Source: Tilletia caries
Taxonomy: Eukaryota; Basidiomycota; Exobasidiomycetes; Tilletiales; Tilletiaceae
NCBI GenBank assembly: GCA_032718865.1
Contig: JALUTQ010000003.1
Location: 278,001-342,000, forward strand
Direction of reading: 5' to 3'
Length of the DNA stretch: 64,000 nt
Positions 3,166 through 8,014 of the stretch are shown one piece after another. The notes below the pieces were generated by a model, which saw nothing but the letters and a program-made list of their open reading frames with translations, had not been told where the DNA came from and did not search any database. The number at the start of each line of letters is the position of its first letter. The first letter of the stretch is position 1. Made by a program: the position numbers and the translations under genes.

Positions 3166-3170
3166 GTTTT
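3166..3170. other. Target-site duplication of the LTR element (left copy)
   Basis: GTTTT; the other copy is at 6291-6295. Five bases is the usual duplication length for LTR retrotransposon integration. Confidence 0.85.
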
Positions 3171-3475
3171 TGTATCGGTAGCGTGCCGATAGGGTACTGA
3201 CCTGCGGGGAAAGTACGAGTAAGAGGACAACGTCCAATAACCTTGAGACAACGTCTAAGGGGAACAAAGGCAACGCCAGAGTGTAGAGAAGAGAGTGCAG
3301 ATGAATTCGAGTAACTAAGTACAAGGGGGAGCAGCGAGAGCGGCGAAGGTGATGAGGAAGAAAGGGAAGTCTCTCGGCCGAGAGAAGGAGAAGTGATGAG
3401 GAAAGAGAGAAAGGAAGATAAGAGATAAGATATAAGAGGGGAGCACGTGGTCCAGCCACGTGGTACACCAGCACA
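3171..3475 (-). repeat. LTR (downstream copy in element orientation)
   Basis: 305 bp. Differs from the other LTR by a 21-bp extra block around 3228-3249 (bounded by the repeat ACAACGTC) and one substitution near 3342. It contains a TATA-like stretch on the minus strand near 3430 and two CACGTG palindromes (3444-3449, 3457-3462). Confidence 0.9.
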
Positions 3476-3582
3476 TGCCCACCCTTAGAAGACGACTGTC
3501 CCGAGTCGGCATGAAGAGTAAACGATGAGGAGTGAGGCGGACGAACGAGAGAAGGAAGGTGGAAAGAGGGGTATGGAGGAAA

Positions 3583-4261
3583 GGGTGCGTCTCGGAGAGC
3601 CTTCTCGCTGAAAGCCTCGAGGATGTCGGACTCGAAGGAGAGCGCAGAAAGGAACTTGTTGTAGACGATGTTCACCTTGCCAAACTTGAGGTTCGACTTG
3701 AAGATCATGTCGGCAATGGCAGCCGCATCCGCAAACGTAGGCACATCACGGCCGACCTGGGAGAAGGAGAGGGCAAGGTTCTTCTTGAACGAACGCTGTA
3801 GCTGAGCCTTGGACTTCTCGCCGAGGACGACGATGGCTGGACCCTCGGGCGAGTCCGGGTTGGCGGCGGTGGGGCTGATCTTGGCGAGCTCGGCACGGGT
3901 CCGCTTGGAGACGGAGGAGTGGATACCGCCGCAGAGACCCTTGTCGGAGGAGACGACGATGAAGAGCTCTCGGCCACCGGATGGTGCAAGGGCCTCGGAT
4001 TTAGTGAAGATATCACCGTTGGCCTTGCCGTAGACCTTGGCAGCCTGCATGGCAGTGGTGGCCTTGTTGAGCTTGGTGGTTGCAATCATCTTCATGGACT
4101 TGGTGATCTTCTCGATGTTCCGGACCGACTTGACTCGTTGCTCAAGCTCACGGAGGGTGGCTAAGTGGCTTGTTGTGCTGCGGAGGCGGAGAAGGAGCGA
4201 GCAGCAGCCAGGGGGCAGCGGCACCCACCAAGGGGCGAGCGGAGCGAGCGAGGGAAGCCAT
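3583..4261 (-). pseudogene. ATP3: Captured fragment of mitochondrial F1-ATP synthase gamma subunit gene
   Basis: The gamma subunit forms the rotating shaft of mitochondrial ATP synthase. From 4157 down to about 3583 one frame encodes the conserved N-terminal helix (LRELEQRVKSVRNIEKITKS), VVSSDKGLCGGIHSSVSK and the following Rossmann-like region to FESDILEAFSEKALRDAP. The ATG at 4261 opens a mitochondrial presequence, but it is in another frame. A middle stretch reading RSFSASAAQQAT is in a third frame. Two apparent one-base losses (near the C-run 4211-4215, and near 4162) would reconcile the frames. The C-terminal helix and the last third of the protein are missing; a pyrimidine-rich, intron-like stretch runs into the LTR. 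It lies wholly inside the LTR element, so it is a captured copy and the working gene should be elsewhere. A chimeric ORF continues from it through the LTR to 3142. Confidence 0.8.
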
Positions 4262-4671
4262 CTCGGAGCGGAATGTGCGAATTCTCGACGCGGACGGGTA
4301 TGAGAGGACGGAGAGTGACTGGAGGTGCGAGCAGTCTGAGTGCTCTGCTGGATGGAGGGATTTCTCGACCTCAACACATGCGCGGGGGCCACGGATCGCG
4401 GAAAACGCTGTTGCCAGTGCGAGATGGATAGTGGATGAAGTAAGCGATTTCTTGAGGAGAGATAGTGAGATCGCGCAAGGGCACAAATGGGAGGCTTTGA
4501 TAGGCCATGGCTGTGGCCCGCGTGCAACCCGACTTGCTGCCGCTATGCGCTACCGTTCTCGTGATCCCTCCTACCCACACGCCGCCGACTCCGGACTGCA
4601 ATGAGCGCAAGTCCCGAAGTGAGTCCCGAAGTCGTCCGAGAGCTCAACTCGCCGCATAGAGGCAGAAACAA

Positions 4672-5054
4672 CTACCCGGCAATGGAGTTGTAGAAGAAGT
4701 CTTGGATCTTGTCGTCGCCGTTCTTGCTGTCGCCGAGCTTGATGATCTGCTCGATGACGCGCTTGAGGTCAGCTACGACGCGAGCGCTCTGGTCGGAGAG
4801 GGCGGAAGTGCGGTCGAAGGTGCCTTCCTTGAGGACGGGGGACTGCTTGATCTTCTCGAGGAGGGCGTTGAGCTGGTTCTGGGAGGGGAGGGCGGTGAGT
4901 GTTGGGTGCGTTGTATGCTGCCCCTCTTGCTGCTACCGCTGTCGATGCTGTCGATGCCGATGCTGGCCCTCGCTGCTGCTGCTGCTGCTGCTGCTGAGAT
5001 GCTGAGAGAGAAGCGGTCGCGCGATGGCGTCGTGTGGGCGCGATTGGCTGCCAT
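4672..5054 (-). pseudogene. Captured gene fragment resembling HAM1-like N-terminal domain
   Basis: From 4878 down to a stop at 4672-4674 one frame encodes LPSQNQLNALLEKIKQSPVL, then ARVVADLKRVIEQIIKLGDS and NGDDKIQDFFYNS. The spacing and the acidic-aromatic ending recall the start of fungal HAM1-like proteins (large lipid-transfer-like membrane proteins), but I am not certain of the family. A possible 3' splice site (TCCCAG) precedes the segment. Another ORF starting at ATG 5054 (MAANRAHTTPSRDRFSLS, then a poly-alanine run) could be its 5' exon in a different frame. The end at GGGTAG may be a real stop or an unspliced donor. It is in the same orientation as the gamma-subunit fragment and also lies inside the LTR element. 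Confidence 0.45.
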
Positions 5055-5559
5055 GACAGACCGTGCATACTATGCCCACTCTCCTCCCTCATGAACGTCC
5101 TCTACGACATTGTCGACGAGATGGCGTGCGGCGGTGGAGATCACGGTACTGTGGTCTGCGTGCATAATGGCAAGGGGACGATGTTGGTTTTGACGAATCG
5201 CTGCAGCAGCAAGCGAGGACCGAAAGGGAACGACGCCGGGTTGTGATGTGGCGACGCCGACTCCGTGATGTGTTCTGGAGAAGTCTCGCGAAAAGAAACA
5301 GCTGTCGGGGCCGGAGGGATTGCTCGACCTCGACACTACCGCGCTGATTGAGAAAAGAGTCGCGCCGAGCAAAGAAGCTGGTGCTTGCCGGCGCCGGCGC
5401 GCATCTGGACAGGTGGACCGGTCTGAGGACGGAGACCGGGAGGAAAAGCGTGCTGTATCGATGCTAAGTCGAAAGGAGACGAAGTCGGGTGAGCCAGTCT
5501 TATGGCGGAGACTGTCGACTACCGAGGAGGCCAGAGCCGAGAGGGTCACACCGATGGAC

Positions 5560-5860
5560 GATGATCGATGGCGTGTCGAGAATCGAAAATAATGAGGCCG
5601 GGTGTAAAGAAGGAGAAGACGGCTGCGCGTCGAAGGGGCAGAGTGGCAGACCCCGAGGCGGACAACCCGCAAATGTGAATGTCGCGATTCGATGGCGTAT
5701 CAAACGCAGAGCAGAACGAAGGCCGATCACAGCTGCGCGCTGGACCAGAGAAGCGCGTCGATGGCTTGTCGAACGCGAAAACCGAGAAGCACCAGTCTTG
5801 AGGCGGAGGCTGGCAAATCGAGGTATCAAAGATCGTACCGACGGCGTGTCGAGAACGAGA
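5560..5860. repeat. Dispersed short repeats within the LTR element interior
   Basis: Four related copies of a motif near GATGGCGTGTCGAGAA occur at about 5571, 5692, 5759 and 5838, each followed by A- and G-rich sequence. They lie next to the upstream LTR, and no protein homology was seen. Confidence 0.45.
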
Positions 5861-6006
5861 ACGGAGAAAAGGTCAAAGCGGCATGCTTGACCGGCGGCTG
5901 CGGCGCAGCAGAAAGACGGGATCTGGCGAGATTGTCGTTGCGCGTCCAGGCGTTGGGTGCTCAGCGTCCGTCGTTCGGGTAACCGAGAGAAGCACTCTCA
6001 TCACCA

Positions 6007-6290
6007 TGTATCGGTAGCGTGCCGATAGGGTACTGACCTGCGGGGAAAGTACGAGTAAGAGGACAACGTCTAAGGGGAACAAAGGCAACGCCAGAGTGTA
6101 GAGAAGAGAGTGCAGATGAATTCGAGTAACTAAGTACAAGGGGGAGCAGCGAGAGCGGAGAAGGTGATGAGGAAGAAAGGGAAGTCTCTCGGCCGAGAGA
6201 AGGAGAAGTGATGAGGAAAGAGAGAAAGGAAGATAAGAGATAAGATATAAGAGGGGAGCACGTGGTCCAGCCACGTGGTACACCAGCACA
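6007..6290 (-). repeat. LTR (upstream copy in element orientation)
   Basis: 284 bp, otherwise matching 3171-3475. It is followed on the plus strand by the target duplication GTTTT and then, five bases later, by the pogo transposase ATG at 6300. Confidence 0.9.
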
Positions 6291-6299
6291 GTTTTCGAC

Positions 6300-8014
6300 A
6301 TGACATCGAAATACAAAGAGGAAGAAGAAGCCGTCGAGTGCGCGGTTGAAGAGGCACAGGCTATCGTTCGGAATGGAGGCAAACCAGATTTTTCAGCTCT
6401 TGGCCGCAAGCACAAGGTGGATCGCCAGCGCATCTCAAGGCGATATCATAATGGATTAAGCAGATCTACACGTCCTGCCAACAATCGGCTGCTCTCAGAC
6501 AGTCAGGAGGCCGCGCTTGTTGCTTGGATTCGCGTGTTGGACGATCTCGAAGTAGCTGCTCGCCCGGCATTGATGAGGGCCTCTGCAAATTAACTCCTTC
6601 GCGTTGCGTGGGAGAGCAACACATCAACAAAGGCCACAAATGAGGCGAATGCGCCCACCGAAGTGGGCGATCACTGGGTCCATAACTTCGTCAAAAGGCA
6701 CGAGGAGCTTCATTTCCTCAAGCAAAAATCGAGGGAGCTCTCGAGAATGACTATGGATTGGACAACAATTAACTGGTTCTTCGTCAAGCTGGATAAAGTC
6801 ATCAAACAGCATGGAATATTGCCTGAAGACATCTGGAACGTTGATGAGGTCGGCTTCCGTGTAGGCATAGGAGGGCGACAATGGATCATTACGCTGGTTC
6901 CATCAAAAGACGCACACCTTGCGTCGGAGACCTGCCGGGATAGCATCACCGCTATCGAGGCCGTCAATGCAACAGGACAGCATATTGAACCGATGATCAT
7001 TATGTCTGCAAGCGTGCACTCTGAGGCGTGGGTGGACAACAAACTCGAGGACGAGACTCTCCTCGCCGTTTCTCCCAAAGGATACACCGACGATATCATT
7101 GCGTTAAGGTGGATCAAACACTTCGCTGCCCGGACCAAAAATATGACCAAAGGCAGCAAACGGCTCCTCATTTTTGATGGACACGGTCTCATTGCACGAA
7201 GCAATTTTTGGATCACTGCGAGAAGAATGGAATCATACCCTTCAGCCTTCCGCCTCATTCGTCCCACGCCCTGCAGCCTCTCGACGTCTCTGTCTTTCAG
7301 CCGTATAAGCATTGGCACAGAGAGGCTGTCGATGCTGCAACACGAACCGGCTGCACAAATTTCAACAAGATAGAATTTTTGGCAGCCCTTCATGATATTC
7401 GAACGAAGACGATGAAGCCCAATACGATTAAGGCGGGATTCAGGCGCACGGGAATCTGGCCGTACAATCCAAATGAGGTCCTGTCCAAGTACCCCAACCC
7501 AAAGTACTCCGGTACTTCATCTCACCAGGCCACCTCATCTCAGCCTAATGTTCCTTCCTCGCCGAGTCAGCCCGAGCCTCCAGTCACGCCGCGCACTGTC
7601 CGGTCCATCAGGCGCTCTGCTCATGAGATAGAGAAGCGATACGATCTCTCGCCGACTTTAGAGAAATATATCAGAGGCACCGTGGAAAATGCGCAAACAG
7701 GGAGCCTCGCAATTTCGGCACTCGATCAACACACAGCAGCACAGGTGGAACGAAACAAGCGTAACGAGCGGCAGCGCAAGGTTACGCAGTCGGGAGGGGT
7801 ACTGTACGCGCGGGAGGCCAGAGAGATAGCTCAGGAGAAGTTGCAACAGGAGGAAAAGGAAGAGGCAAAGCGGGAATGGGTGAAGACGAAAAAGGAGATC
7901 AAGAAGCGCAAAGATGAGGGATGGGCTAAGGTTTTTGTCGAGGTGCGCAAGGTACACCGCCACGTTCCCAGGATTTTTGTAGCCTATCCTCAAAATTTCC
8001 TAGGAGCCTCCTGA
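6300..8014 (+). pseudogene. Pogo/Tigger-type transposase (DDE), one stop and one frameshift
   Basis: It encodes the DDE transposase of the surrounding pogo element, which would bind the terminal repeats and excise and integrate the DNA. The N-terminus (6300-6470) is a Psq-like helix-turn-helix (KPDFSALGRKHKVDRQRIS). A CENP-B-type region follows, with HWVHNFVKRHEELHFLKQKS near 6670. The catalytic carboxylates appear as IWNVDEVGFRVG (about 6833), LLIFDGHG (about 7173) and QPLDVSVFQPYKHW (about 7273). The third acid is D, as usual for pogo. The C-terminus is a long charged coiled region (KLQQEEKEEAKREW). The frame is broken by TAA at 6594-6596 and by a one-base loss near 7190, after which the frame beginning around 7208 continues to the TGA at 8012-8014. 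The LTR insertion separates the ATG from its promoter. It is inactive as it stands. Confidence 0.85.

Follow-up and report, generated by a model that had tools for sequence, protein, structure and literature searches.

What brought pieces of host genes between the long terminal repeats (LTRs) of a retrotransposon-like element in the smut fungus Tilletia caries, copying of RNA or rearrangement of DNA? The element, here called W, lies at positions 3171–6290 of the 64,000-bp stretch analysed (the window, C3:278001–342000, in a genome of 38.1 Mb on 40 contigs), and its interior includes part of ATP3, the gene for the gamma subunit of F1 ATP synthase. Contigs are given C numbers and other loci L numbers. 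We favor, with a probability of roughly 0.85, the reading that W is a non-autonomous LTR retrotransposon whose interior was built by successive captures of host mRNAs through template switching.

A spliced ATP3 copy between terminal repeats

W reads on the minus strand of the window. The initial annotation described near-identical 305- and 284-bp direct repeats with TG..CA ends, a GTTTT 5-bp duplication, primer-site-like and polypurine-like sequences beside the LTRs and no retroviral genes inside, and all of these were confirmed (Table 1). Alignment of the two LTRs gives 1 substitution in 284 sites and 21 gap columns, with blocks of 229 nt (100%) and 67 nt (99%) and the length difference between them; the LTRs, being nearly identical, point to a recent insertion. 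The 21-bp stretch separating them adjoins ACAACGTC repeats, and both LTR forms occur elsewhere in the genome, the one without the 21 bp in L026 and L027. Twelve stop-to-stop open reading frames (ORFs) of W were scanned against Pfam, a set that does not include every short ORF, and none was found to encode a retroviral protein. The minus-strand ORF 3142–4542 matches ATP-synt (PF00231, E 3.8e-38), ORF 4672–4932 matches HAM1_N (PF19343, E 1.2e-8), and the other ten gave no match at E 0.01. A second coding fragment had also been described in element orientation; it is a fusion of two host genes, an F-box gene and a HAM1_N gene.

An intact ATP3 is present elsewhere (L045, C4), contains introns and splices to a 307-aa protein, and we therefore rejected the possibility that the copy in W is the native gene. 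The cargo lacks native positions 1522–1951 (430 bp, GT..AG, just before the ATG) and 2193–2262 (70 bp, GT..AG) of L045, in both cases exactly at the splice sites. It starts at L045 position 1400, inside the 5' untranslated region (5'UTR), and ends with GACGCACCC at the join of exons 3 and 4. Thus, an ATP3 start is present on the minus strand as annotated, in the form of a spliced and frameshifted piece beginning in the 5'UTR, and the idea that upstream DNA was carried along found no support, as no upstream promoter DNA was found with it. Of the 750 sites aligned with the spliced native sequence, 12 carry substitutions in W; in addition, 1 bp has been lost in the presequence region and 8 bp have been gained further on. 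The related element L020 (C13, 5' LTR truncated to 138 bp) carries 5'UTR-to-coding sequence of an SCS7-like gene (best solved-structure match yeast SCS7, E 2.8e-62). The native gene (C15:717174-718466) contains two GT-AG introns, one of 72 bp and one of 97 bp, and L020 lacks each of them precisely. The exact loss of GT-AG introns from both pieces indicates, at the level of sequence, that they were captured from spliced RNA.

A search with the interior of W found one other LTR element with an ATP3 piece, L014 (C4:704588-707208), flanked by GGAGG instead of GTTTT. The HAM1_N–ATP3 block is 99% identical between the two over 1424 bp, and six derived changes in ATP3 exon 3 are shared; together with the different duplications this means that the cargo was captured once and then moved. 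The two elements have the leader and the HAM1_N–ATP3 block in common and differ in the upstream neighbor of HAM1_N, which is the F-box piece in W and a 22-nt motif (discussed below) in L014, whose cargo includes HAM1_N and ATP3 pieces and has no F-box match. In the same way, L009 (C19, CTCAC) and L015 (C13, GCAAG) share a block of kinase, NOG1 and HIS4-start sequence (98% over 1477 bp), and L015 continues beyond HIS4 with a later part of the same kinase gene.

The W LTR matched at least 40 places in the genome (all 40 candidates scored out of 103, hence a lower bound). Besides the pairs of W, L009, L014 and L015, 5-bp duplications flank those of L010 (C28, ATGCT), L050 (C34, GTGAC) and the gypsy-like L023 (C5, GCTCG), as well as the solo LTRs L011, L012 and L013; this tally leaves out, among others, L022, L053, L056, L019, L020, L064, L052 and L057. 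Substitutions between the LTRs of one copy are few: 1/305 in L009, 1/312 in L014 (on C4), 2/315 in L015, 0/261 in L050, and 2/291 with 14 gap columns in L010. These further near-identical pairs show that the repeat structure of W is more than chance. The follow-up proposed in the initial annotation, namely a search for another LTR-flanked copy of the ATP3 piece, for one intact intron-bearing locus and for intron differences between captured and native copies, thus came out in favor of RNA-mediated gene capture by a mobile LTR element.

Probable capture from mRNA and its alternatives

Seven host genes, each on a different contig, are the sources of the cargo across the family: ATP3, HAM1_N, F-box, SCS7-like, kinase, NOG1 and HIS4. 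The F-box and HAM1_N genes were named by Pfam, NOG1 by a solved-structure match (E 2.1e-74), and the kinase by its Pkinase domain (best solved match CaMKK2); the gene with PRA-CH, PRA-PH and histidinol dehydrogenase domains we take to be HIS4. We counted 14 pieces, a block common to two elements being counted once and the kinase relic of W being left out: five in W (ATP3, F-box, HAM1_N and two NOG1 scraps), three in L009/L015 (kinase start, NOG1, HIS4), the later kinase piece of L015, the SCS7-like pieces of L020 and L064, which have different endpoints, and HAM1_N pieces in L050, L052 and L057. The last three are 74–81% identical to the gene and therefore older. HAM1_N-gene pieces at 74–89% were seen among L046, L047, L048, L050, L052 and L057, that is, in three elements and two further loci, as if this transcript was captured often. 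Thirteen of the 14 pieces are in sense orientation.

At the five junctions where both partners are known, they overlap by 5 nt (TCCCC, F-box/HAM1_N), 9 nt (GACGCACCC, ATP3/kinase), 7 nt (TCAGCTC, kinase/NOG1), 5 nt (CGTCC, a jump inside HIS4) and 0 nt (HIS4/kinase in L015). Since the kinase gene has the same nine letters, the last two letters of the ATP3 cargo can be assigned to neither gene. At the very place where L015 keeps a long kinase piece, the tail of W opens with 19 letters of the kinase gene, and ATP3 is joined to them via the 9-nt match; in 20 shuffles of the kinase stretch, the longest match was 11 letters. With the relic at this position, W reads as a case in which one cargo, the kinase, was replaced by another, ATP3.

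We directly observed the LTR pairs and their duplications, the exact loss of introns in two genes, the chimeric junctions and the same cargo at different loci, and the last three, together with sense orientation, count for mRNA capture by template switching. As for the course of events, we infer co-packaging, the identity of the helper and the direction of switching. Element RNA and cellular mRNAs would be packaged together in particles of a Ty3/gypsy-type helper. During minus-strand synthesis, reverse transcriptase would leave the element tail at a short microhomology, copy the mRNA toward its 5' end and return to the element RNA upstream. The hybrid cDNA would then integrate with a 5-bp duplication and could later retranspose with its cargo.

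Sense orientation and intron loss are also expected if read-through came first: an insertion beside or in a host gene, followed by DNA fusion or deletion, would yield a chimeric transcript, which would be spliced and regain its 3' end by one later switch. This two-step model is the one used for retroviral oncogene capture, and the native loci cannot reveal a former insertion. However, the sources of the cargo are seven loci, each on a different contig, an element with several genes would have required many fusions, and the overlaps of 9 nt (ATP3/kinase) and 7 nt (kinase/NOG1) fit direct RNA-to-RNA switching; we consider this explanation unlikely. Capture at the DNA level, by gap repair, gene conversion, or a Helitron or Pack-type transposon, could account for the HIS4, NOG1, kinase, F-box and HAM1_N (W) pieces, which gave no intron test, but it is contradicted for two of the seven genes by the exact GT-AG intron loss, and the sense orientation of 13 of the 14 pieces and the LTRs with 5-bp duplications speak against it, which leaves it very improbable. 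Processed pseudogenes made by long interspersed nuclear elements (LINEs) and inserted into existing LTR elements would explain the intron loss, yet we give them hardly any credence, as the junctions examined are direct gene-gene or gene-element joins with no A-run or duplication, the cargo pieces of W, L009, L015, L020 and L064 end within coding sequence, and one and the same mosaic is found at separate loci, each with its own target duplication.

Several observations weigh against mRNA capture by template switching, or leave parts of it uncovered. Only ATP3 and the SCS7-like gene provide an intron test, so the other five genes could in principle have been taken up as DNA. The gaps in the HIS4 (about 570 bp) and kinase (159 bp) pieces fall within open reading frames and do not represent introns, and a 41-bp stretch of ATP3 5'UTR absent from W is not a GT-AG intron. 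The 27-nt NOG1 scrap of W is antisense. Only three pieces start upstream of an ATG (ATP3, the SCS7-like piece in L020 and F-box) and the others are internal, for which reason a rule that cargo starts at transcription starts was dropped. About half of the W interior is without an assigned source. For the conserved primer-site-like sequence TGGTGATGAGAG, two pattern searches, and ARAGORN at three candidate places (0 genes), gave no convincing tRNA primer. Finally, in the candidate helper L023 the integrase core (rve) and protease matches fall below the Pfam cut-off, and a further RNase H match follows the integrase region; this copy may therefore be rearranged.

Relatives, candidate helper and layout of W

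L023 has RVT_1 (E 2e-30), RNase H and Integrase_H2C2 zinc-binding (E 8e-15) domains, and its LTR is identical to that of W over 136 of 136 bp. The primer site of W and part of its LTR recur in both L022 and L023. No DNA match was listed between the interior of W and either of theirs. Based on the 136-bp match and the primer site of L023, W would belong to the Ty3/gypsy superfamily, and an L023-type element is a candidate helper. A gag ORF of a related element has eight protein relatives at E <=0.001 among 7997 scored candidates, all eight in Tilletia species (41–53% identity). Directly beside both gypsy-like relatives (L022:468-1541 and L023:184-1437) we noted other reverse-transcriptase sequences (RVT_2, RVT_1), hinting at nested retroelement insertion.

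The polypurine tract AAGGGTGGG is identical in W, L014, L015, L019, L020 and L050, with one-letter variants in L009, L010 and L052. Self-priming of the Tf1 kind was considered and not adopted. A 9-nt self-match of the primer site is found in the LTRs of W, L009, L010, L014 and L015, a length reached in 4 to 13 of 500 shuffles, and the seven members L022, L023, L050, L053, L056, L057 and L064 have no LTR self-match longer than 7 nt.

The W interior (2531 bp) runs in the order leader, stretch partly shared with L019 and L020, NOG1 scraps, F-box, HAM1_N, a 308-bp stretch, motif, ATP3, kinase relic and tail (Table 1). The initial wording that it consists of captured pieces was too broad, since host genes account for only about 1.2 kb of it; a leader common to L014 and, in part, to other members makes up about 0.5 kb, and the remainder has no assigned source.

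Table 1. Features of W in window coordinates. Positions within the element run along the minus strand, starting at the primer-site end of the interior; 6007 minus such a position gives the window coordinate.
Feature	Coordinates	Strand	Basis
Target-site duplication GTTTT, left	3166..3170		seen in sequence
3' LTR, 305 bp, TG..CA	3171..3475	-	repeat comparison
Element tail common to L014 and L015	3476..3573	-	sequence comparison
Polypurine-tract-like AAGGGTGGG adjoining 3' LTR	3478..3486	-	same or near variant in other members
19-nt relic of C10 protein-kinase gene, exact match, marks earlier cargo; its GACGCACCC common to ATP3	3574..3592	-	sequence match
Spliced ATP3 mRNA piece, 5'UTR to exon 3/4 junction	3583..4342	-	match to native gene
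22-nt motif copy GTTGAGGTCGAGAAATCCCTCC, 11 nt upstream of ATP3 piece	4354..4375	-	motif scan
Stretch without assigned source, present in L014 too	4376..4683	-	genome comparison
HAM1_N-domain gene piece, 98.5% over 206 bp to C3:858103-858308	4684..4889	-	genome match, Pfam
F-box-like gene 5' end, native C30:1086481 region, 80% over 191 bp; meets HAM1_N at TCCCC	4885..5082	-	genome match, Pfam
27-nt NOG1 scrap, inverted orientation	5083..5109	+	match to native gene
NOG1 coding scrap, sense, 89% over 38 bp	5097..5134	-	match to native gene
Stretch partly common to L019 and L020	5141..5485	-	genome comparison
22-nt motif copy GTCGAGGTCGAGCAATCCCTCC	5313..5334	-	motif scan
Leader: L014 92.5% full length; L019 ~318 bp, 76%; L009, L010, L015 first ~100 bp, 69-70%	5497..6006	-	sequence comparison
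Primer-binding-site-like TGGTGATGAGAGTGC adjoining 5' LTR	5992..6006	-	sequence
5' LTR, 284 bp, without 21 bp of the other LTR	6007..6290	-	repeat comparison
Target-site duplication GTTTT, right	6291..6295		seen in sequence

The 22-nt motif GTYGAGGTYGAGMRATCCCTCC occurs, with at most one mismatch, at 61 places in the genome, and its reversed pattern at none. It ends 5 nt before the kinase piece in L009, 11 nt before ATP3 in W and L014 and, in L064, 35 nt upstream of the SCS7-like piece; in L014 it also directly adjoins HAM1_N, and elsewhere it lies 73 nt (SCS7-like, L020), 90 nt (HIS4) or more than 100 nt from the cargo. It stands just upstream of four of ten cargo 5' junctions (permutation p 0.0009, post hoc, the 40-nt window and the positions having been chosen after looking; the ten include related elements and are not fully independent), and the remaining six are 73 to >400 nt from it. 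Thirteen motif positions were tested, six of them from the genome scan (two each in L009 and L015, one each in L014 and L064) and one off by one base. The motif is found outside known members too, e.g., in inverted pairs 7.7–12 kb apart on C5, C19, C23 and C30, and is thus not specific to the family of W. These pairs are perhaps the ends of a large transposon; at L066, which with L067 makes up the C23 loci, the motif lies within a ~97-bp tandem unit. A tentative and rather doubtful extension is that the family forms a standing capture platform, in which the leader with its primer site and the tail with its polypurine tract bracket an exchangeable slot, the motif inside this slot is the preferred re-entry site of reverse transcriptase after mRNA copying, and cargo is repeatedly added or swapped.

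The single ORF scanned per element gave no Pfam match in L010, L019, L053, L064, L050 and L052. In the interior of L010 (L010:1743-3682), ~1.5 kb (positions 316–1821) gave no other match when the genome was searched and is possibly a capture of lost or foreign sequence. The HIS4 cargo of L009 contains a 770-bp inverted-repeat element (L009:3209-3978) with the ends TAAGGATGGG..CCCATCCTTA and the 8-bp duplication GTGCAGAA; 37 of its 44 genome-match rows are near-full, at 93–99%. On C13, the LTR, a flank and some of the interior occur twice, at L015 and L016, in opposite orientations, likely a segmental duplication including the element. Just past the W LTR (window 6300–7373), on the strand opposite to W, ORF 6594–7373 matches DDE_1 (E 7.4e-7). 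A neighboring frame with no Pfam match begins at an ATG 9 nt beyond the LTR and is probably the start of the same broken transposase gene.

Comparison with known systems

The LTRs, the 5-bp duplications and the removed introns led us to reject W as a Helitron or Pack-type transposon with terminal inverted repeats. With terminal-repeat retrotransposons in miniature (TRIMs) and large retrotransposon derivatives (LARDs) W shares LTRs, primer-site-like and polypurine-like sequences and the lack of a detected pol. However, TRIM interiors are very short, and that of W is larger than TRIM norms and in good part host mRNA sequence, so it was not classified as a TRIM. In retroviral oncogene transduction, too, spliced host mRNA is joined into an LTR retroelement by switching of reverse transcriptase; unlike there, no virus is involved here, the genes are housekeeping genes, the ATP3 frame is broken, and many captures are found in one genome.

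A plant TRIM with a captured P450-like fragment is mentioned in an excerpt of PMC13317346. Chimeric retropseudogenes of Magnaporthe grisea, according to the available part of PMC2104539, are likewise fused copies of cellular transcripts in a fungus, formed by template jumps, but through LINE reverse transcription. The Pyrenophora hAT and Tc1/mariner transposons that carry host genes by transduplication (PMC3538342, in excerpt) are DNA transposons with terminal inverted repeats, whereas W is an LTR element. In the accessible portions of the open-licence literature, outside of which most subscription papers lie, we found no report of an LTR element capturing spliced host genes in a fungus (PMC13317346, PMC4905642, PMC13041039, PMC2104539, PMC3248453, PMC3538342, PMC10684912, PMC9172201).

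In this fungus, an LTR element appears to have shuffled unrelated host genes via RNA, and the donors, recipients, junctions and replaced cargo are all preserved within one genome. A template-switching route to chimeric genes would thereby become directly readable, in a compact system for measuring how often capture happens, which points of entry and exit are preferred and what part packaging plays. We take the mark of a Bs1-type element to be intron-less host-gene pieces between LTRs together with an intron-bearing native source, and this is what we found for ATP3 and the SCS7-like gene, two of the seven. Several unrelated genes per element are seen in W (NOG1, F-box, HAM1_N, ATP3 and the kinase relic) and in L009 (kinase, NOG1 and HIS4). 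The closest known case is Bs1 of maize, described in the same excerpt of PMC13317346 as an LTR element with segments of several unrelated host genes (three transduced), none a full-length ORF, and W likewise is an LTR element carrying several unrelated host-gene segments. By this analogy, W behaves like a Bs1-type, gene-transducing LTR element, with the difference that here several related elements hold different mosaics, the replacement of cargo is visible, and the host is a fungus.

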